A DNA stretch of 28,546 bases from the IMG/VR virus record IMGVR_UViG_3300041964_000109, positions 1-28,546 of that record. One strand, given 5' to 3'. Source of the DNA: a virus. A program made the position numbers and the translations under genes. The first letter of the stretch is position 1; every line of letters begins with the position of its first letter. Shown here one piece after another: positions 5,259 through 28,398 of the stretch. A model generated the notes under the pieces. It was not told the DNA's origin. It saw only the letters and a list, made by a program, of their open reading frames with translations, and made no database searches.

Positions 5259-5437
5259 GAATAATCATCACCAACCACTACCTCTGTGCTGGATGGGCTT
5301 TCGACGTGGCACACTTCTACGGTGACTACGTAGTCACCAAAGGCGGGAGTCGGTTCTATGCGAATCAGTGGCGAGTGGCAGAGGAAGGGGAAGAGGCGGT
5401 CAAGGTTAATCCTGATTTGGAGGTAGCGGCAAAGTGA
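5255..5437 (+). CDS. Small hypothetical protein, 60 aa
   Basis: Begins MRIIITNHYLCAGWAFDVAH and ends with an acidic tail (EEGEEAVKVNPDLEVAAK). It overlaps the MazG gene by four bases (ATGA) and the next gene by four (GTGA), so it lies in a fully coupled MazG / 60-aa / PP-loop cassette. No motif is recognised. A metal-binding role (His8, Cys11, His20) is conceivable but unproven. Confidence 0.65.
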   Translation: MRIIITNHYLCAGWAFDVAHFYGDYVVTKGGSRFYANQWRVAEEGEEAVKVNPDLEVAAK

Positions 5438-6507
5438 ATCAGCAGCTTTCCCTGTTTCCTGAACCCCGAACTCGCCTCGACTCTCTCCTTGATTGGTCAT
5501 TCGGGGTGTTCGACTCGCTTGACCCTAACCAGGAATATCAACTTGCCTTCTCTGGTGGTAAGGATAGCCATGTTTTGCTGGGTGTGTATCTGCTGTGGTG
5601 TGAGAGCAGGGGTAAGCGGTTGAATCTGAAGGTGGTTTTTAGCGATACGTTTCTGGAGTCTCCTAAGCTGTACGCTCTGATCGATTCGGCTGCTCAATTA
5701 TGCGATCGCCTGTCCATCCCATTCGTTAAAGTCCATCCTTCCATCGAGAAAAGCTTCTGGGTGCTGCTTGTTGGTCGAGGTTATCCAGTACCAAACTGGA
5801 AGAATCGCTGGTGTACCGGAAAGCTCAAAGTAGAGCCAATGGACAAACTTAAATCTATCGCGATTGCAGGCTCTCACAAGGGAGAATCTAGCAAGAGAAA
5901 CGATCGCCTAGATGGGTGCGGAAGCTCTGAGTGTGGAATTGACTCTCTTGAGAACAAAGTAGAGCCTCTAACTCCGTGGAAGAACTGCGACGTGTGGGAC
6001 TGGATAATCTTGTTTTCTGACGATGTTCTCTATCAAGGGGTGTCTGGTGCGCTGCTGTCCCTCTACGAAATATCGGAAAGCCAGAACGGCAGCTTGCGGA
6101 TGGGGTGCTTTATGTGCCCAGTGGTAGGTAGAGCAGCGATCTCTAAACAGGTAGATGATGGCATCATTCCGGCTATTGCCCTACAAGTCTGGGACTTGAT
6201 TAACGGCAAACTCAGATTTGCACCTCGTATCTTGTCAGAGCGAACAGGCAAGGCTGGTGCTATCCATATTGACTCAAGGATTGAATTCTGGAAGGAACTA
6301 CAGCCACTAATCCCACAGCTTCGAGAATATGGCTGGCTCAGTGAAGAGGTTGAGCAGACAGTGAATGAACTTTTGGAAAGACGCGCCTACCCACCCACTT
6401 ACAGGCAAGAGTGGATTGACGAGCAAGAGGCTTATGCGACGCCCTGGAGACAGCGCAAAGGCAAGGTGACGGTATCGAGCAAATATGAGCAGTTGGCGTT
6501 GTTGTAA
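5434..6507 (+). CDS. PAPS-reductase/DndC-like PP-loop protein, 357 aa
   Basis: An ATP pyrophosphatase-fold enzyme. The PP-loop SGGKDS is at residues 40-45, followed by VVFSDTFLESP and NRWCTGKLK, as in PAPS reductases and DndC-type sulfurtransferases. Cysteines at 127 (WCTG), 162/167 and 225/228 (GCFMCP) are placed like the Fe-S or sulfur-carrying cysteines of DndC-like proteins. The family activates a substrate with ATP and transfers or reduces sulfur; whether this one modifies DNA, tRNA or a nucleotide is not visible. The GTG start overlaps the preceding stop. It is the last gene of the operon and no other dnd gene is nearby. Confidence 0.85.
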   Translation: MNQQLSLFPEPRTRLDSLLDWSFGVFDSLDPNQEYQLAFSGGKDSHVLLGVYLLWCESRGKRLNLKVVFSDTFLESPKLYALIDSAAQLCDRLSIPFVKVHPSIEKSFWVLLVGRGYPVPNWKNRWCTGKLKVEPMDKLKSIAIAGSHKGESSKRNDRLDGCGSSECGIDSLENKVEPLTPWKNCDVWDWIILFSDDVLYQGVSGALLSLYEISESQNGSLRMGCFMCPVVGRAAISKQVDDGIIPAIALQVWDLINGKLRFAPRILSERTGKAGAIHIDSRIEFWKELQPLIPQLREYGWLSEEVEQTVNELLERRAYPPTYRQEWIDEQEAYATPWRQRKGKVTVSSKYEQLALL

Positions 6508-8135: not shown

Positions 8136-8170
8136 AATCGCTCAAGTTTTAGCAGGCTTGAGCGATTTTT
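8136..8170 (+). terminator. Rho-independent terminator inside a convergent gene
   Basis: AATCGCTCAAG at 8136-8146 pairs perfectly with CTTGAGCGATT at 8157-8167, followed by TTT and G. It ends the HTH gene on the plus strand. The hairpin also encodes the last residues and stop of the minus-strand 8142-8948 protein, so one sequence serves both transcripts. Confidence 0.8.
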
Positions 8171-8948
8171 GTTGTTGAGATACTGCTTCAGGTAATGAAA
8201 GCAGGTAAGCATCAGCACTTTGTAATTTAGCGATTACTTTGCTTTGAATCCGATTTTCCTTCATGTTTTCTACCTGGGTTCGACTTAGTGCTTGCATCGA
8301 CTCTTCTAAAGCGCCTATCCAAATTGATAGTTCTTTATCCAGCTCTGAGCTGTTTAGCTCTGGTTTCACTTTTGACATAGAGGTAATAACTTCTGCGATA
8401 CAGGAAATAATTTCTGTGTCGAGGCTAAACCATTCTCCAGTAATCCAGAATTCATCAAAAATTCTGTGGACTTTCGCTTCCCAAGAAATGCTAGGAATTG
8501 GAATACAGCCAAGCAGGGTTAACCTGAATGGATTGCCTACCTGAATATTGCTAACTCGATTCTTGATATCAGAGGTGTAACCGATTTTTACGGCTTTAGC
8601 AGGTTCGCAGTAGATAAAGTACAAAACCAGCGGATAAGCCTCGTGAGGATAGTTGACGCTTTCGTTGCTACAACCTCTTCTTTTCTTTGATTTTGTTGTA
8701 GGCGGTACATCTTTCTGCTTGCTACCACTTTTATTAGACAGGAAATCCTCGACAAACTTGAGTAGGTTTTTCTCAAGCTCACGAATGCGCTTACTCTTCT
8801 CTACTGACTCTTTTGCAAGGAATTCAATTTCTGTTTGTGCTGCTTTCAGTCGTTCTTCCAGTCTTGCTGTTTTTAACCGCAGATCCTCTACTTCCTGTCG
8901 AGCAAAAACCAGTTCTAGTGAGTCTGTAATTTTCTGTTTATTTAGCAT
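8142..8948 (-). CDS. Coiled-coil protein with T5orf172 (GIY-YIG-like) domain, 268 aa
   Basis: Residues about 10-70 are a continuous coiled coil and 71-100 a basic linker. Residues 109-180 match the T5orf172/Mug113 branch of the GIY-YIG superfamily: LYFIYCEPAKAVKIGYTSD, then RVSNIQVGNPFRLTLLG and a closing GEWFSL. A helical C-terminal extension follows. This branch is frequent in phages, often fused to DNA-binding or antirepressor domains. Its catalytic state is uncertain because only the Tyr and Lys/Arg positions are visible. It diverges from the repeat region at 9008-9248. Confidence 0.75.
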   Translation of the reverse strand: MLNKQKITDSLELVFARQEVEDLRLKTARLEERLKAAQTEIEFLAKESVEKSKRIRELEKNLLKFVEDFLSNKSGSKQKDVPPTTKSKKRRGCSNESVNYPHEAYPLVLYFIYCEPAKAVKIGYTSDIKNRVSNIQVGNPFRLTLLGCIPIPSISWEAKVHRIFDEFWITGEWFSLDTEIISCIAEVITSMSKVKPELNSSELDKELSIWIGALEESMQALSRTQVENMKENRIQSKVIAKLQSADAYLLSLPEAVSQQQKSLKPAKT

Positions 8949-10289: not shown

Positions 10290-10446
10290 TAGCGCTCTCG
10301 TCTGGATGGGTGCAGCCTACGTGGTCTTAATGTCACTAACACTTGGAGCGCTAGTTTATGGACAACTACATCGAGATACAAGAGGAAGAGATTCAGCCCA
10401 CAGTCAAAACGTCAATTTACAACAACGGACGATCAATACTTTTTGA
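10246..10446 (+). CDS. Small single-span membrane protein, 66 aa
   Basis: I prefer the ATG at 10246 over the GTG at 10237 because GAGGTG stands six bases before it. Residues about 19-40 (ALVWMGAAYVVLMSLTLGAL) form one transmembrane helix, followed by VYGQLHR and a short polar tail. The motif G-A-x-x-Y-G-Q-L-x-R after the helix recurs in the next protein, so the two share ancestry at least there. Its 3' end contains the start of the 10358 gene in another frame. Confidence 0.65.
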   Translation: MLVLYSGLVSQLKPSSALVWMGAAYVVLMSLTLGALVYGQLHRDTRGRDSAHSQNVNLQQRTINTF

Positions 10447-10684
10447 TGTTAAGGGATTAAGCTCCTACGAAACCTCAAGGCTGCATGAAGAGATGGTTCA
10501 ACAAGCTGCACAAATAAGGCAGCAAAACAGAGAATCGCAACTCATAACCTTAATAGCCTTTGGTCAATTACTACTTTTTTTAATTTGTGGAGCAATGTTT
10601 TATGGGCAGCTACAACGAACAGAAGGAGGCGACAACCAACAAAGTTCGATTCAGCATCAACCCGGAAGGACAAATCGAGTTTGA
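10358..10684 (+). CDS. Membrane protein, paralogue A, 108 aa
   Basis: The N-terminal about 60 residues are cytosolic-looking (MDNYIEIQEEEIQPT, then ILFDVKGLSSYETSRLHEEM). One transmembrane helix (about 65-84, TLIAFGQLLLFLICGAMF) and YGQLQR follow. It resembles the next gene product in the F-D-x-x-G-L-S-x-x-E-x segment and in overall layout, and the previous one in the post-helix motif. It begins 89 bases before the previous stop with no clear ribosome site, so translational coupling is likely. Confidence 0.7.
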   Translation: MDNYIEIQEEEIQPTVKTSIYNNGRSILFDVKGLSSYETSRLHEEMVQQAAQIRQQNRESQLITLIAFGQLLLFLICGAMFYGQLQRTEGGDNQQSSIQHQPGRTNRV

Positions 10685-10919
10685 TGCTCAAGGGTTGAGT
10701 GAGTGGGAAGCTACCGAGATAATCAGTCAGGTTGCAACCCAAGCCAGAGAACAACGCAGTGCAGCAAAAAAGATTCAGGAAATCAAGCTCACCTCCGAAT
10801 TCTTTATGCATTGCCTAGCCTTGGGCTTTGTGGTGGTGCTGGTGACGGGATTCAGTTTCACAATTTCCAGGATAATTTCAGGAGTTTTTACCCCAGAGGT
10901 TCAAAATGTCCAAAGATAG
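10602..10919 (+). CDS. Membrane protein, paralogue B, 105 aa
   Basis: ATG at 10602 is preferred over the upstream GTG at 10587 because it sits at the same place relative to YGQL as the start of paralogue A. The cytosolic part (MGSYNEQKEATTNKVRFSIN, then IEFDAQGLSEWEATEI) aligns with paralogue A. A transmembrane helix at about 72-92 (MHCLALGFVVVLVTGFSFTI) follows. The overlap with paralogue A is 83 bases. The pair points to tandem duplication of a membrane component of the ATPase module. Confidence 0.7.
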   Translation: MGSYNEQKEATTNKVRFSINPEGQIEFDAQGLSEWEATEIISQVATQAREQRSAAKKIQEIKLTSEFFMHCLALGFVVVLVTGFSFTISRIISGVFTPEVQNVQR

Positions 10920-11031
10920 TATTTCGCTCATTCTTATGACAGCAGGGGTGTTCCTGCTATTTCACAACATCGGCTCAATGAGTGCGATCGCACTGCAAGA
11001 CAATCAGGTACTTACAGCAGAGGTCAAGTAA
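10906..11031 (+). CDS. Small membrane protein, 41 aa
   Basis: MSKDSISLILMTAGVFLLFH is a short polar N-terminus and one hydrophobic helix, followed by about 20 periplasmic-looking residues ending QVLTAEVK. It starts 14 bases inside the preceding gene, and its TAA overlaps the next ATG (TAATG). It includes a HIP1 octamer. Size and packing resemble minor membrane subunits of secretion or filamentous-phage-like assemblies, but that is only an analogy. Confidence 0.6.
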   Translation: MSKDSISLILMTAGVFLLFHNIGSMSAIALQDNQVLTAEVK

Positions 11032-11243
11032 TGGTATTAGGTCGATTAGTTCCGTTCAACTCAAGTGGCATCAGCCACGGTCAAGGGCTAGCTTCTGGGC
11101 TTAATCCCGACGACATTAGAGCAGTGGAAGCTCGAACCAAGAAAGTGATGCAACGAGCTGGCAGAATGCCTATGAAGGCATCAGCTCAATCAGTAATGAA
11201 CGCAGCAAAGTTAGCCAAGTTTATGGAAACCAAAACGACTTAA
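11031..11243 (+). CDS. Small basic protein, 70 aa
   Basis: Begins MVLGRLVPFNSSGISHGQGL. The C-terminal half is basic and Ala/Met/Lys-rich (KKVMQRAGRMPMKASAQS). The start codon overlaps the preceding stop. From about 11120 a second frame (one base back) is open and continues 233 bases beyond this stop, so the annotated end may be wrong if a frameshift, natural or sequencing-derived, occurs between 11120 and 11240. Confidence 0.5.
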   Translation: MVLGRLVPFNSSGISHGQGLASGLNPDDIRAVEARTKKVMQRAGRMPMKASAQSVMNAAKLAKFMETKTT

Positions 11244-15167: not shown

Positions 15168-15424
15168 TTAGTTTTCTTTGAGGCTTTGAATTAACTCAAT
15201 GGCTTTGGCTTTGTCTCCATCTTCCAAAGCCTCAACAATTGGAACCAGTGAAGCACGAATATACCGAGTTTGACCCTGACCGCTACTCGGTCTGCCACGC
15301 TTCCTGACTACTGCTTTGGGACAGGAATAACATCCCCCGCTCGATAATTACCGCCGTGCGACTCAACCACAACAGCCGCCCCTTTGACCCCATCAACTTC
15401 TAACCTCGGATCGAAAGTTCCGAC
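15168..15424 (-). pseudogene. Displaced C-terminal part of the Nudix-Csx3 gene
   Basis: In the frame shifted by one base at the GGGG run (plus 15424-15427) the protein continues as VGTFDPRLEVDGVKGAAVVV, then ESHGGNYRAGDVIPVPK. A second shift at the AAA run (plus 15315-15317) continues as AVVRKRGRPSSGQGQTRYI to an end at SLKEN. The first piece completes the Csx3 fold with its DPR and SH motifs; the second is a basic tail with an AT-hook-like KRGRP. The second piece could instead be a separate small gene, but it has no start codon. Confidence 0.65.
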
Positions 15425-16157
15425 CCCATTTATAGATATGGGCTTGATGCGCTAGGCAGGCAAACAACCACACCGGAGCGCGACCTGAAAGCACGATACC
15501 CTTAGTTGTGTCGCAATTGGGCAGTTCTAACCCTTTCAAGTCTGCGGGTTCACAAACCTCGTTGGGTAAGCCGATCTCCAGTAAGGTGAAGTCACCGCGA
15601 TCGCTGGCTACAAGCTCAATGTTTTTCATTGGTACTTTTCTCCACACAAAGTAAGTTGTTTTGTCATCCTGAACCTCTACATAGCCTTCAGCTTTATAAG
15701 CCTCCGGCTCTATAAATACGTCGTACTTATGCCGCACGTATCTCGTCAACAACCCTGGATACGAAGGAGATTCACTCTCCTCCGCATTCATTCCTAGGCA
15801 AGCTGTCCGGACATAATCCGGGTCTATTCCCAGCTCTTCCTCTACTGCCCTAAGAACCGCATCTTGAGACACCTCTTTAGGTTGCATCTTTTCAGATATT
15901 CCCCGCTTTGGAGAGCCATCTTTCTCTTGGCGCTGGCGAACTCTGCCATCAGAGAAAACTTGCTTCTCTTCAATCAGATACTGCTTGGCGTCCAGCGTGA
16001 AAACGTTCGCTACCACAACATTGATCACTCTGACAGGGTGATAAGCCTGCCACTGAATCAGGCACTCCCCCGACTCGATTTCTTCCAAAAGATGCTCAAT
16101 AGTTTTCGCTTCACCCTGACCGTAAAGTTTTACGGGTAGGCTTTCAATTAGTTGCAT
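15393..16157 (-). CDS. csx3: Nudix domain fused to Csx3 (CRISPR ring-nuclease family)
   Basis: Residues about 46-176 form a Nudix-like domain. The box is degenerate but visible: E95, seven residues, then RAVEEELGI (103-111), with Ala for the first Glu of R-E. Residues about 185-244 begin a Csx3 domain: DFTLLEIGLP, a KGIVLSGRAPVWLFACLAHQ stretch and QAHIYKW. The fold is finished in a shifted frame (15168-15424) with WVGTFDPRL and VVVESH. Csx3 (Crn3) proteins degrade cyclic tetra-adenylate, the second messenger of type III CRISPR. I use the ATG at 16157; a TTG at 16190 is in frame. No CRISPR genes are nearby. The frameshift makes the present state uncertain. Confidence 0.8.
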   Translation of the reverse strand: MQLIESLPVKLYGQGEAKTIEHLLEEIESGECLIQWQAYHPVRVINVVVANVFTLDAKQYLIEEKQVFSDGRVRQRQEKDGSPKRGISEKMQPKEVSQDAVLRAVEEELGIDPDYVRTACLGMNAEESESPSYPGLLTRYVRHKYDVFIEPEAYKAEGYVEVQDDKTTYFVWRKVPMKNIELVASDRGDFTLLEIGLPNEVCEPADLKGLELPNCDTTKGIVLSGRAPVWLFACLAHQAHIYKWGRNFRSEVRS

Positions 16158-16247
16158 AGTTGCAATGATGAGAGGGGTACTGCCTCTCAATGCGATCGCC
16201 AGCCTCCGACTGCTGCTAGACCTCCATTAGGCGCGACCGCTATTCAA

Positions 16248-20691: not shown

Positions 20692-20880
20692 TTAATTGAG
20701 AATCAACTGTATAGAAAAAGTCGGGATAGGGCATTGCCACGACTCTAAATGTACGTCGAGACAGAGTAAGACTACTTCGGTAGCGCCAGTCGATGAAGCG
20801 TCAAGAATCACCGTCGCTCTACTCGCGGTGAGTATGTCAAAAATATATTCACGCCCCAGCTTATTCTTGGAAATACCCAC
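20692..20880 (-). CDS. Doubtful 62-aa reading frame
   Basis: GTG start without a ribosome site, immediately after a terminator-type hairpin. The frame (KNKLGREYIFDILTASRATV, then VILDASSTGATEVV) is moderately protein-like but may be chance; the same stretch could hold the promoter of the 20659 gene, since TTGACA occurs twice in it. Confidence 0.25.
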   Translation of the reverse strand: MGISKNKLGREYIFDILTASRATVILDASSTGATEVVLLCLDVHLESWQCPIPTFSIQLILN

Positions 20881-22565: not shown

Positions 22566-22700
22566 ATGGAAGAGAAACAAATGCTCAATGTACGAGTACC
22601 AAAGTCCGAAATACAAATCCTAAAAGACTATTGTGATCGCACTACCAGAAGTCAGACCGAAGTAATTAGAGAACTAATCCGTTCACTGAAAGAAAAGTAA
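22566..22700 (+). CDS. Ribbon-helix-helix regulator, 44 aa
   Basis: A minimal Arc/CopG-type fold. QMLNVRVPKSEIQILKDY is the strand and first helix; RSQTEVIRELIRSLKEK is the second helix. Length and pattern fit a homodimeric DNA-binding protein or an antitoxin-type regulator. Its TAA overlaps the ATG of the GIY-YIG gene (TAATG), so the two are co-translated, and a palindrome overlaps its promoter. Compare the GIY-YIG protein at 6673-7137, where an RHH-like domain is fused in the same chain. Confidence 0.8.
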   Translation: MEEKQMLNVRVPKSEIQILKDYCDRTTRSQTEVIRELIRSLKEK

Positions 22701-23233
22701 TGCAACAAAAATTAGACCGCTGCTATCAACTAGCAAATACGTCGGTCAACTTACAAAGCCTCCCTTTTTGCTTCTTGACAGAGAAACATTTATTACCAAA
22801 AACTAGCGGAGTCTACTTTGTGATAGATGAAACGGGTAAAGTTTACTATATTGGCAAAGCGGTGAATTTTCGGCGTCGCTGGGCAAGCCATCATCGACTA
22901 AATGAGTTGCAGCGATTAGGGAAGCAATTCAAAATTGCATATTTGACTATTGCTGAACAAAAATCTTTGCTACAGATAGAACGGACAATGATTACTGAAT
23001 TTAGCCCATTACTTAATGGAGTCAAGAACAAAGAGAGAATAGTTAAAGACATTCAGTTTTGGACTTTTGAAGGGACCTACGCCACTGTTAAAGAGGCTTG
23101 CACTCTACTTGACTGTACTGAAGGATATGTACGACGGATGCTAATAGTCAAGCGCTTAGATGGCATCAAGATAGGTTGCGAGTGGTTAATTCCAGTTGTA
23201 AACGGAAAACTTGAAGTTAAGGAGAAGAGTTAG
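22700..23233 (+). CDS. GIY-YIG nuclease with C-terminal HTH, 177 aa
   Basis: GIY-YIG domain at about 30-105: SGVYFVIDETGKVYYIG (GVY at 37-39, YIG at 50-52), NFRRRW with HHR, and E94 as the metal-binding Glu. After residue about 125 comes an excisionase-like HTH (YATVKEACTLLDCTEGYVRR, then EWLIPV). The closest relative in the window is the 6673-7137 protein. Homing-type or element-specific endonucleases have this plan. The gene is second in the RHH operon. Confidence 0.85.
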   Translation: MQQKLDRCYQLANTSVNLQSLPFCFLTEKHLLPKTSGVYFVIDETGKVYYIGKAVNFRRRWASHHRLNELQRLGKQFKIAYLTIAEQKSLLQIERTMITEFSPLLNGVKNKERIVKDIQFWTFEGTYATVKEACTLLDCTEGYVRRMLIVKRLDGIKIGCEWLIPVVNGKLEVKEKS

Positions 23234-24171: not shown

Positions 24172-24312
24172 TGCCCCGCCTTGAGCGCCTTGCTCCGTAG
24201 CGCGTTGAATAGCCTCCTCAAGTTGTTCGCGAGTAACATAATTTGTCTTTTCAGAGTTTCTATCTTGGACAAAAATAATTCTGACGCCTCGTCCTCGTTC
24301 TTCAGACACCAT
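24148..24312 (-). CDS. Small protein duplicating the tape-measure C-terminus, 54 aa
   Basis: Starts at an ATG overlapping the tape-measure stop (MVSEERGRGVRIIFVQDRNS). The last part, YVTREQLEEAIQRATEQGAQ then GGAKIARRLP, closely repeats YVTREQFEEGVRYAAQQGAQ then GGARI near the end of the preceding protein. It is therefore a duplicated tail segment that became a separate micro-gene. It could be an assembly partner of the tape measure or a leftover. Confidence 0.65.
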   Translation of the reverse strand: MVSEERGRGVRIIFVQDRNSEKTNYVTREQLEEAIQRATEQGAQGGAKIARRLP

Positions 24313-26083
24313 GCCGCCTTCTTTCGCTTGGAGAATTGCGTAACCAATTTGACGTAATCCTTGCGCCGCCTTGAGCGCCTTGTTGAGCAGCATAGCGAAC
24401 GCCTTCTTCAAACTGTTCACGAGTAACATAGTCTCGTTCCCCTATTTTTTCGTACTGAATGCTTATACTGCCACCTCGCTCAACAGGTTCGCCACTGCTG
24501 TATTCCCTTTGCTGATAGGAGGGCATTTCCCCAGAGTTGACTGACTCCAAGAAAGCGCTCCCCATGTTTGCAACGCCGTCTCGTGACATCACATACTCAC
24601 CGGGACGCAGCATTGCCGGAACCGTATCAACGCCGATATCACGACCAGGAACCATGCCGCCCTCTGAGAAGCCCAAGACACCGGAGAGGAAGCCGAAAGG
24701 ACTGCCGCCTGTAGCCGCTCCCGTGACGCTCCCTAGGATAGTTCCCAGCAAACCGCCGCCCGTGTCTTTGCCTGTATTCTTCCCTTTGAACAATGCCTCG
24801 ACACCGATATCAACCAAGCGTCCCATAATCTGATTCTTGAGCTGATTGAACGAATCTTTTAGGCTTTCAAAAATACCCTTACCTTCAACCAAAAATCCTT
24901 TAAAGAATCCCTTGGTGGCATCCCTCCCAGCTAATTCAATTTCGCGGCTCAAGTCTGCAAACTGCTGACGAATTTGGTCAGTTTTAAGCCTGTCAATTTC
25001 AATAATCTGACGGCGCATTCTCTCCAATTCCTCGTTGGGAATTTTCCCTTTGAGGGCGTCTAGTTGAGCTATCTGAGCTGTGAAATTTAGCGTCTGCTGT
25101 GCCAGTGCTGTTTCCCGACGGATTGCCTGGGCTGTGAATTCGGCTCCGTTACCTGCCAACACGTCAGCTTTAAGGTTTCCGTACTCAGCACGTTTAGAAA
25201 AGATGGACATAGACCGAGCGATCGCACTCTGCTCTTTTTGAAGTGTCAGTACTTGGTCAAGGTTAGTCTTTTGCCGAGCATAGTCTTCAGCCGTGAGGTT
25301 GGTCAGTGCCCGTGTTTTCTCTAATTCACGAATAGCAGAGTCGTACTGAATCTGGTTCTGGGCATCCTGAACTTGCTGAGTAAGGAAGCTAGAATCAATC
25401 CCCGCAGCCCCCAATCCAGCCATTCGAGTTTGGGTGACAGCCAAATCTGACTGCTGATTCTGTTGCTTCCGTCGGAGTTCAAAGTCCAGTCTTTCTTGAT
25501 TTGCCCGCTGCTGATTTTGCTCGAACTCAACCCGTGCATTCTCCAGTCGCTTATCTGACGCTTGGTTTATCTTGGCTCGAATGGCGTTGAGTTCTTCCTG
25601 AGAGCGGTTGGTATTGGTCAGAGCAAAGCGGTCTTGCTCCAGTAACTGCTGTTGCCTCTCCTGCTCAATCTGAATGACTGACTGCCCATACCTGATAGTG
25701 TTGGGGTCGCCTTGGGTAGTGTCAAAGGGTCGCGTCTGCTGGAACAATTCAGCCGCTCGTAATTGCTCTTGTGTTAGTGCCCCGCTAGCTTGGTTTTGGC
25801 GTTGCAAGAATGCGAAGTCTGCTTCCCTAAATTGCATCTGGCGCTCTTGCAAGCCAAACTTTTTAGCAGCTTCAGTGTTATCAACAATGTCTTTCTCTTG
25901 CTTTTGGAGGGATGCGATCGCCTGGTTATATTCCTCTGGCTTAATCTGCTCTAATCTCAACTGCTCCGCCAATTGCCGACGCTTTTGGTCTAGCGGTAAC
26001 AGTTGCTGCATCAGGTCAATTTGAGCTTGCAATGCAATGGGGTCGCCTTGGGAGAAGTCTCTAGGATTTCGCTGTTGAGCCAA
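24302..26083 (-). CDS. Tail tape-measure protein, C-terminal part (593 aa frame)
   Basis: Long Gln/Glu/Arg-rich helical and coiled-coil region (residues 1-400), then a Gly-rich hydrophobic stretch (about 440-470). The tape-measure signature GFSEGGMVPG followed by DTVPAMLRPGEYVMSRDG comes near 475-500. The end ITSNWLRNSPSERRR is typical of such proteins, so the stop at 24302 is real. The TTG at 26083 is not a natural start; upstream codons continue the coil and are separated only by frameshifts. The product sets tail length and is threaded into the host during DNA injection. Confidence 0.8.
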   Translation of the reverse strand: MAQQRNPRDFSQGDPIALQAQIDLMQQLLPLDQKRRQLAEQLRLEQIKPEEYNQAIASLQKQEKDIVDNTEAAKKFGLQERQMQFREADFAFLQRQNQASGALTQEQLRAAELFQQTRPFDTTQGDPNTIRYGQSVIQIEQERQQQLLEQDRFALTNTNRSQEELNAIRAKINQASDKRLENARVEFEQNQQRANQERLDFELRRKQQNQQSDLAVTQTRMAGLGAAGIDSSFLTQQVQDAQNQIQYDSAIRELEKTRALTNLTAEDYARQKTNLDQVLTLQKEQSAIARSMSIFSKRAEYGNLKADVLAGNGAEFTAQAIRRETALAQQTLNFTAQIAQLDALKGKIPNEELERMRRQIIEIDRLKTDQIRQQFADLSREIELAGRDATKGFFKGFLVEGKGIFESLKDSFNQLKNQIMGRLVDIGVEALFKGKNTGKDTGGGLLGTILGSVTGAATGGSPFGFLSGVLGFSEGGMVPGRDIGVDTVPAMLRPGEYVMSRDGVANMGSAFLESVNSGEMPSYQQREYSSGEPVERGGSISIQYEKIGERDYVTREQFEEGVRYAAQQGAQGGARITSNWLRNSPSERRRHGV

Positions 26084-26502
26084 TTGTGCTTTACGTAGCT
26101 GTGCCTGTGCCTCGGCTATTTCTCTCTTGGGTTAGCATATCTCGCGCTGCCAACCGCCTTAGTTTTTCTTCTCTGGCAAATCGCTCCTTCTCGAAGGATT
26201 CACGACGCTTTTGCTGATCATCAATCCCAGCCTAGAATTTAGTCTACTTCGGACAAGGTTTTGCTACCTGCGGCGATCGCTTTCCTCGTTGTAGCGATAT
26301 CTTCCTGTAAGTTCTGCCCTGGTTGCACTTGATAGCCAGGTGCAGTCAGCTCAGACTCAGTACGTTTTGCCTGTTCAACACCCGCCTCTTGTCTGACGCT
26401 GAAACTCAACCAACTTTCGGCGCATATCATCATAAGAATCTTTGGTGGCAGTCGTTTGTTGCTGAAACTCACGTAATGGGGTGGGGTCGCCAATTGCAAA
26501 GC
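26084..26502 (-). pseudogene. Damaged central segment of the tape-measure gene
   Basis: Coding sense continues in pieces: RNLGFAIGDPTPLREFQQQT in one frame, EAGVEQAKRTESELTAPGYQ in another, then AGIDDQQKRRESFEKERFAR in a third. Shifts lie near 26513 (TTT shortened to TT), 26390 (an extra A), 26241 (an extra base) and 26122, and a TAG reads at 26234-26232 where CAG would fit. Correcting these joins the two large frames into one protein. Confidence 0.65.
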
Positions 26503-28398
26503 CTAAGTTACGAACTCTCGCGTATTAGCTAGTGACTGCTCATATAGTTGGTTCAGAGATTGGCGAGTTTGCTCTGTTCGGCTCTTCTGCTCCAACTCCC
26601 CTCTAGTTTTCAGATCGGTTAAAGCCTGCTGTTCCTGCTGAATGGCTAGTTGGTCTTGACTTGACCGATTCTGCATTACCTGAGACTGCCCCGATGCAAT
26701 TCGTTGTGCATTGCCAGTATTGGGATTATTCATCTGTACGCCCAACACAGCCGAGCGCTGCCCACTGCTAGCAACGTTATTCAAGTTAATCCCGCTGTCC
26801 TTGAGGAACTGCCGCGCACGGGCGTTGTGTTCGCCCTGCCGGAATTTGGGTGCAGCATTACGAACTGTCGTGCCATTAGAATCTGAGGCATCCCAATAAC
26901 GTTCTGAGGCTTGACCTGCTAGTACAGCAGAGTATGCGTGGCGGATATCGTGCTTTCCAGGCTGGAATCCTCTGTCCTTTAAATAGCGCTCAACTGCGGG
27001 TATCTGCTGTGCGATGCTCTGCTGTCCTGATGTGCCATATGTGCGTTGGTTGTCTGGGGAGAACTGGATGATTCCTTTGTAGGCATTGTCATCTCCACCG
27101 AACACATTGGGGTTAAGAGTTCCCCCGCTCTCCCAACTCATTAATGAAGCAAACTCGATTGGGTCTAATCCTAGTCGTTGTGCCGCTTTCACTAATGCCA
27201 CTGCTCCTGCTGGGTCGGATTGCACCCGCTCGGCACTGCCGATAGTTCCGCCACGAGGTATTCTTCCAACCCCACCCACGCTTGGCAACTGAAATTGCCC
27301 CTTGCTACCGCTACCGACATTCAAGTTAGTCGAGGCTGTCACACTTGCAAGGGTTCTGTTGGCGGGTAGGTTCTTCCGATTATCACCATGTCCCGTTTTC
27401 ATTACAAGGTTACCCTTGGAGTCGTAGATAACAGCATAATTCCCATATCCGCCTCCACTGGCATATTCAACCCGTCCACCAGCTACGGATGGCAGCAAGA
27501 ACTCTGCCCCCTCTGTAGACTTGTCATACAAACCCCGTCCCTTCTTAGGCACGTAATAGTCGAAGTCCCAGAGCGTTGGATTAGGGCTATGACTGTGGGC
27601 AGCATCTATTTGTTCAAGTAGAGCAAATTTCTCCTCTCTAGACGCATCGGTTCGCCAAGTTTTACCAGCTACAGCAGCGTTGCTAAACAGCATCTCTCGA
27701 CCCTGGGCATTGTATGCCGCCGCCATTTGGTCGATTAGCTGAATCGCCATATCCCTGCCGATTGACTTGGCTATCTTACTATCGATGTGATAATCAGCGC
27801 TTCCACCAATATTCGCGGCTGGTCCAGTGTACAAACCGCTAGCAAAAGCACCCGAACCCGAAGCACCTGCACTTCCACCTGTTCCACCAACCAGAGCAAA
27901 ACTTGTCGCTATTCCCTCTTGTGCTGCCTCTGCTGCGCCGCCGTCTTTTAGTTCTTGAATCTTTTGTTTAACGGTATCGATTGCATTGCCGATTGAATCA
28001 ACAATGCTTTGCCCCAATCCAGTGACAGTTTCAGTCACCCCTTTGAAGTCAAAACCCAAGCTAAGAACTTTGGAGCGAATCTTTTCAACAGAATCAGGGA
28101 ATAGCCCCAGCCTTGCCAGTAGCTCTGCAACAGCAGCAAGGACGGGATTGAATGATTTCAGTAGTGCTACTCCAACTATTCCTGCTAGTCGCTGCATCAA
28201 TATTCCGGGTATCGAGAGCAAGTTATTCCAGCGCTGTTGTAGTTCTAGGTTTTCTTTCGTCCCTAACTGAAATTCTTTCTGGACATAGTTCCAGGTGAAT
28301 CCGATATCAGCCAAGAATTTATTCCAGCCTTGCAATTGAGCGTTTATCCCAGTAAATTCGGCTGAAACAGACGCTCCTGCATTCTTCGTTTGATTCAA
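26503..28398 (-). CDS. Tail tape-measure protein, N-terminal/central part with lytic domains (631 aa frame)
   Basis: Hydrophobic helices at about 62-100, then a Gly/Ala/Ser linker. Residues about 198-345 resemble an M23 (LytM) peptidase: DYHIDSKI, AHSHS (268-270) and GGRVEYASGGGYGNYAVIYD with GHGD at 337-340. Residues about 395-510 look like a lytic transglycosylase: SLMSWESGG with E423, then YKGIIQFSPDNQRTYG. Tape measures with such domains help the tail cross peptidoglycan. The end at 26503 is a frameshift, not a true terminus, and its ATG at 28398 is not the natural start. Confidence 0.75.
   Translation of the reverse strand: MNQTKNAGASVSAEFTGINAQLQGWNKFLADIGFTWNYVQKEFQLGTKENLELQQRWNNLLSIPGILMQRLAGIVGVALLKSFNPVLAAVAELLARLGLFPDSVEKIRSKVLSLGFDFKGVTETVTGLGQSIVDSIGNAIDTVKQKIQELKDGGAAEAAQEGIATSFALVGGTGGSAGASGSGAFASGLYTGPAANIGGSADYHIDSKIAKSIGRDMAIQLIDQMAAAYNAQGREMLFSNAAVAGKTWRTDASREEKFALLEQIDAAHSHSPNPTLWDFDYYVPKKGRGLYDKSTEGAEFLLPSVAGGRVEYASGGGYGNYAVIYDSKGNLVMKTGHGDNRKNLPANRTLASVTASTNLNVGSGSKGQFQLPSVGGVGRIPRGGTIGSAERVQSDPAGAVALVKAAQRLGLDPIEFASLMSWESGGTLNPNVFGGDDNAYKGIIQFSPDNQRTYGTSGQQSIAQQIPAVERYLKDRGFQPGKHDIRHAYSAVLAGQASERYWDASDSNGTTVRNAAPKFRQGEHNARARQFLKDSGINLNNVASSGQRSAVLGVQMNNPNTGNAQRIASGQSQVMQNRSSQDQLAIQQEQQALTDLKTRGELEQKSRTEQTRQSLNQLYEQSLANTREFVT

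Follow-up and report, generated by a model that had tools for sequence, protein, structure and literature searches.

Viral ring nucleases described so far are mainly AcrIII-1 proteins, with few Csx20 and Csx16 members, and a 2025 search of 28,114 phage genomes recovered AcrIII-1 (36), Csx20 (4) and Csx16 (2) with no Crn3 (PMC12409355). For Crn3, H60 and D69 mutants are inactive, R71 and H80 mutants are strongly reduced in activity, and H57 and the S44-G45-R46 loop have been implicated as well (PMC7371418). Nudix-cREC fusions of jumbo phages have been read as joint counter-defence (PMC9503650). In the literature searched, we found no prior report of a Crn3-type ring nuclease in viruses and no description of a Csx3–Nudix fusion.

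The stretch of DNA analysed here (the window, 28,546 nucleotides, IMG/VR record IMGVR_UViG_3300041964_000109) carries a gene that joins both domains, and comparison was made with a near-identical phage genome, G001 (IMGVR_UViG_3300018719_000003, 107,653 bp). Coordinates are collected in Table 1. We consider the product likely to be a phage Crn3-type ring nuclease that acts as a type III anti-CRISPR and has a Nudix-fold partner; no activity data exist and cA4 (cyclic tetra-adenylate) cleavage is inferred. The protein resembles Crn3/Csx3 (A. fulgidus AF1864; PDB 6YUD, 3WZG) in fold (1.0-1.5 Å), in sequence (~40% identity), in H57/H60/D69/R71/H80 and in the SGR loop. Unlike AF1864, it is encoded by a tailed phage without cas genes, has an N-terminal Nudix domain, and shows a short insert (EVDGVK) after DPRL and a -1-frame extension. 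Cyanobacterial Csx3′ (Csx3-AAA/kinase) is likewise a Csx3 fusion in a cyanobacterial setting (PMC7371418; L005, L054), but it is encoded in a type III-B locus and has Csx3 at the N terminus, ahead of an ATPase/kinase, whereas the window protein has Csx3 at the C terminus, behind a Nudix domain, and is carried by a phage. The proposed role, erasure of cA4 by a virus, is that of AcrIII-1/Crn2 (DUF1874), whose fold is unrelated; the Pfam scan gave no DUF1874 match in the window protein. As in the Nudix-cREC fusions, a phage pairs Nudix with a second nucleotide-signal-processing domain, but the partner here is a ring nuclease and not cREC, and membership of the same Nudix subfamily is not shown.

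Table 1. Positions of features in the window
Feature	Position	Strand	Remarks
Nudix-Csx3 fusion gene, 282 aa in intact homologue	15308..16157	-	ATG 16157-16155, stop 15308-15310
N-terminal Nudix-fold domain (predicted), residues 1-174	15636..16157	-	AF2 pLDDT ~95; Foldseek to RppH, NudC, ADPRase, probability 1.00
C-terminal Csx3/Crn3 domain, residues 178-282	15311..15626	-	Profile, structure, residues H57, H60, D69, R71, H80
CCCC run, one-base frame break	15424..15427	.	CCC in intact G001 homologue
C_CCA_AAG, in-frame -1 slippery heptamer, 3 nt before csx3 stop	15314..15320	-	
Start-less -1 frame extension with RKRGRPSSGQGQTRYI motif	15168..15313	-	Stop 15168-15170
Tape-measure gene, broken in window	24302-28398	-	Single-base insertions at 26122, 26233, 26387; intact in G001
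Phosphoadenosine phosphosulfate reductase-like gene	5434-6507	+	PF01507, E 2e-10
T5orf172/MUG113 and GIY-YIG endonuclease-like genes	8142-8948 and 22700-23233	- and +	

In the window, the gene is read in two frames. The frame at 15393-16190 (minus strand) runs through RAVEEELGI and KGIVLSGRAPVWLFACLAHQ until an extra C in the CCCC run cuts it short, the shifted frame reads on through VGTFDPRL to VVVESH, and PF09620 (Cas_csx3) matches in two pieces flanking the break (E 3.6e-15 and 3.4e-5). The G001 copy (L003:8034-8882) reads through without interruption, giving 282 aa when started at the ATG (window 16157) or 293 aa when started at a TTG, and its DNA is that of the window gene apart from the one base inserted in the window. 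Because this copy is intact and the window's tape-measure gene is also broken by single-base insertions, the frame break is likely a sequence error and not gene death.

The intact 282-aa protein clears both curated cut-offs, with 82.6 bits for PF09620 (cut-off 21) and 81.1 bits for TIGR02579 (cut-off 55.4), and its best solved relatives by sequence are the A. fulgidus Csx3 chains (E ~1e-16). An AlphaFold2 model of the fusion, based on an alignment covering both halves with viral homologues for the Csx3 half, has a mean pLDDT of 93.7 and a pTM of 0.69, the latter leaving the predicted relative placement of the Nudix and Csx3 domains uncertain. Foldseek matched the C-terminal half to Crn3 structures 6YUD (cA4 complex) and 3WZG with probability 1.00 and an rmsd of 1.0-1.5 Å; against Crn3 entries including 6YUD, values were 1.0-1.2 Å (~1.1 Å for 6YUD) with a TM by target of ~0.85-0.89. 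In a library of predicted viral structures, the best 50 matches to the fusion included Nudix proteins and no Csx3. The Csx3 half keeps H57, H60, D69, R71 and H80 together with the S44-G45-R46 cA4-binding loop. With the domain, its fold and its active-site residues shown, the C-terminal half is very likely a Crn3/Csx3 ring-nuclease domain, for which support is strong; Mn2+-dependent cA4 cleavage and tetramer formation are inferred.

The N-terminal half is weak by sequence, scoring 17 bits against PF00293, under the 21.1 cut-off. Its Nudix fold is clear in the predicted structure, which Foldseek paired with RppH, NudC and ADP-ribose diphosphatase at probability 1.00. The Nudix subfamily is small, with invariant E89, K90, E95, R103, E107 and E108 and a SYPGL motif, and has relatives in a 642-kb huge phage, other phage contigs, Patescibacteria and Chloroflexi. 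Of the Nudix box, E95, R103, E107, E108 and G110 are retained, and two positions depart from the strict form GX5EX7REUXEEXGU, with E89 replacing the G and Ala replacing the Glu that follows R (REU to RAV). We thus describe a Nudix-fold domain and not a proven Nudix hydrolase; catalysis remains possible, with no activity shown.

An initial annotation, made from sequence alone, had quoted the peptides RAVEEELGI, KWVGTFDPRL and VVVESH, all of which are present in the window, and had proposed a C-terminal Csx3/Crn3 domain after a one-base correction, which is upheld by profiles, fold and residues in the G001 copy. Its N-terminal Nudix-like domain held for the fold, with a weak sequence match, and a second nucleotide-processing activity in that half is plausible and not shown, the box being non-canonical. 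The structural comparison with Csx3 and Nudix that it proposed was run, and Foldseek matched both. Its gene boundary at 15168 failed in part: that position is the stop of the -1-frame extension, and the Csx3 frame stops upstream of it.

The carrier is a tailed phage of a cyanobacterium. Window and G001 share 98-99% identity across most of the window, and from ~14.4 to ~26.1 kb (11.7 kb) they are the same except for the extra C of the frame break. G001 has an exact 107-bp terminal repeat and is an apparently complete, end-repeated phage genome. It contains 129 copies of HIP1, the cyanobacterial octamer, against 1.3 expected, and it has a terminase match, tail, endolysin, DnaB and sigma-factor genes in Pfam scans, an intact tape-measure protein of 3073 aa, and a virion protein that matches its counterpart in the Cylindrospermopsis phages Cr-LKS4 and RM-2018a over the full length at ~40% identity. 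The interruptions of the tape-measure gene in the window are likely sequence errors. No RAMP gene was matched in G001 or the window record, against four matches in a Nostoc plasmid used as positive control; no CRISPR-like array was found in the phage genome, and Pfam scans of G001 gave no type III cas families. The terminal repeat, HIP1 excess, terminase, virion and tail genes, Cylindrospermopsis-phage relatives and lack of RAMP genes or a CRISPR array together support the assignment, so that phage location and absence of cas genes are shown, with strong support for a ring-nuclease domain carried by a phage. From HIP1 density and the Cylindrospermopsis relatives, the host is inferred to be probably a filamentous cyanobacterium.

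Other features of this carrier were also recorded. A 131-bp stretch (window 20710-20840) shares 84% identity with unannotated plasmid DNA close to parAB in Nostoc sp. UHCC 0870, a possible hint of a Nostocales link; beyond it, the plasmid search gave no protospacer-like or phage-like match. The PF01507 gene may be an auxiliary metabolic gene, and the endonuclease-like genes may be mobile endonucleases. PADLOC labelled G001:7985-9058 and 10322-11224 as ‘Csx1’ (model PDLC01039), which we take to be a misnamed model because equal numbers of its members match TnpB/Cas12f-type transposase models, because the two strong matches are long, TnpB-type-looking ORFs in a transposase region, and because the model fires in 7/14 control genomes.

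The pairing of Csx3 with Nudix recurs in a second, HIP1-rich cyanophage, G027 (IMGVR_UViG_3300045919_000635). In G027 csx3 is followed closely by a Nudix gene in the same orientation, whose product is 42% identical to the window's Nudix half. Fusion in one phage and adjacency in another speak for a shared task. Besides window/G001 and G027, none of the other fetched Csx3 loci had this Nudix family nearby, and no Csx3 was found near the other fetched Nudix loci.

In the mechanism we propose, the Csx3 half would dimerise during infection and two such dimers would sandwich cA4, one with its D69 face and the other with its H60 face, assuming that the N-terminal fusion fits the head-to-tail tetramer of Crn3. 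The ligand would then be cut to linear A2-P, and with cA4 removed, Csx1-type effectors would stay inactive, resulting in a type III anti-CRISPR. The Nudix half would most likely hydrolyse, or possibly only bind, a second nucleotide signal from host defences; its substrate is a guess, for example of the ADP-ribose or NpnN type, and has weak support. Support for the anti-CRISPR role is moderate: in E. coli, immunity mediated by cA4 drops when Csx3 is expressed (PMC7371418). Cleavage of cA4, benefit against a type III host and the Nudix substrate are all inferred, and the presence of a type III system in the unidentified host is unproven. With regard to the initial annotation, its phage-like element without any cas gene held (a tailed cyanophage with no RAMP gene and no array), while its anti-CRISPR role is supported and not proven, the host's type III system being unexamined. 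Of the outcomes it named as refuting, none was seen: the structural match to Csx3 is a strong one, the G001 copy retains the residues, and the gene sits in a phage genome and not in a CRISPR locus. If the protein is active, viruses have also taken up the Crn3 fold, the set of type III anti-CRISPRs is widened, and a two-domain enzyme becomes directly testable; a conserved Csx3–Nudix pairing would suggest phages that erase two nucleotide signals at once.

There are other possible explanations for this gene. The Csx3 half could bind or degrade another adenylate signal, or be a sponge or RNA deadenylase, for example countering a CBASS-like system. In favour of this, the activity first ascribed to Csx3 was Mn2+-dependent deadenylation (cited in PMC7159879), phage sponge proteins are known (PMC12409355), and one other viral Csx3, from G002, has lost the cA4-binding loop while retaining the catalytic residues. 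The window protein, however, has both the loop and all catalytic residues, and we regard this alternative as unlikely. Less likely still, the gene could be a host-type off-switch that travels with type III CRISPR on a mobile element and protects the host cell, not the phage. In cyanobacteria, the usual neighbours of csx3 are type III-B genes, on plasmids too, which would fit such a role, but the zero RAMP matches across the window record and 12 other viral Csx3 records, against those in the plasmid control, speak against it, as do the missing array and the apparently complete, end-repeated genome of G001.

It could further be argued that the gene is dead, or that Csx3 has been joined by accident to a Nudix enzyme with a housekeeping role in the nucleotide pool, given the frame break in the window copy and the occurrence of the Nudix family alone in huge phages, Patescibacteria and Chloroflexi. 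This is very unlikely, as the intact G001 copy and the similarly broken tape-measure gene point to sequence errors and the Csx3–Nudix pairing occurs again in another cyanophage as adjoining genes. An anti-CRISPR ring nuclease with a Nudix-fold partner is our preferred reading.

The 3′ end of csx3 has a possible signature of programmed -1 frameshifting, noticed late and after the fact, with no product seen. The heptamer is C_CCA_AAG in G001 and C_CCA_AAA in G027, and in both phages a common motif (RGRPSSGQGQTRYI / RGRPSTGQGRTVYL; RGRPS·GQG) in the -1 frame is preceded by no ATG, GTG or TTG. This frame extends ~46 codons past the csx3 stop in G001. In G027 (L110:4576-5546) it holds the GRP motif, lacks a canonical start and continues into the Nudix gene, where a frameshift-made Csx3-Nudix fusion is conceivable, again with no product seen. 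In two other phages, G029 and G023, C_CCT_TTG is followed by a start-less, GRP-containing -1 extension that is 82% identical between them past the stop (51/62 residues), with differences weighted to third codon positions (9/4/16). As for a possible stimulatory RNA structure downstream, G029 has a 9-bp stem 6 nt past the heptamer (z -2.3) and G023 a similar stem (z -2.2); in G001 the structure is weak (z only -1.1).

Of the 415 phage ORFs screened, just two have both an in-frame heptamer and a start-less -1 extension of >=40 codons, namely csx3 of G001 and csx3 of G027; the screen missed G029 and G023, most likely owing to its start filter and ORF-picking rule. A motif search of the fetched phage DNA gave three matches, each directly behind csx3. 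The extension had no convincing match among solved structures and no match among plasmids, and it may alternatively be a small gene in its own right that has an atypical start. A bolder reading, which we put forward with slightly more doubt than belief, is a cyanophage counter-defence module composed of a Crn3 ring nuclease, the RGRPS.GQG extension and Nudix, assembled by gene fusion in the window phage and, in other phages, by a programmed -1 frameshift at one of the heptamers C_CCA_AAR and C_CCT_TTG. Were it true, a set share of the ring nuclease would gain a second signal-erasing activity and/or a nucleic-acid-binding tail, which could autoregulate the gene. Frameshifting, should the signature prove real, would offer an unusual route to Csx3-Nudix fusions.

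Four scans placed Csx3 in at least 14 IMG/VR viral contigs of <=272 kb, including G001. All of those checked by profile (12/12) exceed the PF09620 cut-off, seven of the Csx3-carrying contigs have a terminase match, and no RAMP match was found in the 12 other viral records carrying Csx3. Most viral Csx3 proteins are stand-alone (97-122 aa as called). H57, H60, D69, R71 and H80 are conserved in 11/11 viral loci, the window's included, and the scan pattern behind this count covered the SGR loop only, without requiring the catalytic residues; conservation in an earlier scan is partly built in, since its pattern demanded H, H, D, P and R. The csx3 gene of G028 is flanked by a tail-like gene and by a long coiled-coil gene taken for the tape measure, likely inside a tail operon, with genes assigned by eye. 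Queried by tblastn against 50,697 catalogued phages, four viral Csx3 proteins found no Csx3, and one of them recovers Crn3 from a plasmid, with 39% identity. An initial scan of the genome collection, queried with the fusion, gave no match, and in Chloroflexota (301 genomes) each of 24 matches spanned just one of the two domains.

Two variants of Csx3 were observed along the way. The stand-alone phage Csx3 of G002 (L073:7941-8288) has Asp-Asn-Ala in place of the S44-G45-R46 loop, from which a different ligand is a possible inference. In Chloroflexota, ORFs of ~400 aa (L088, L091-L097) carry C-terminal Csx3-like stretches, several of which have lost the catalytic residues partly or wholly.
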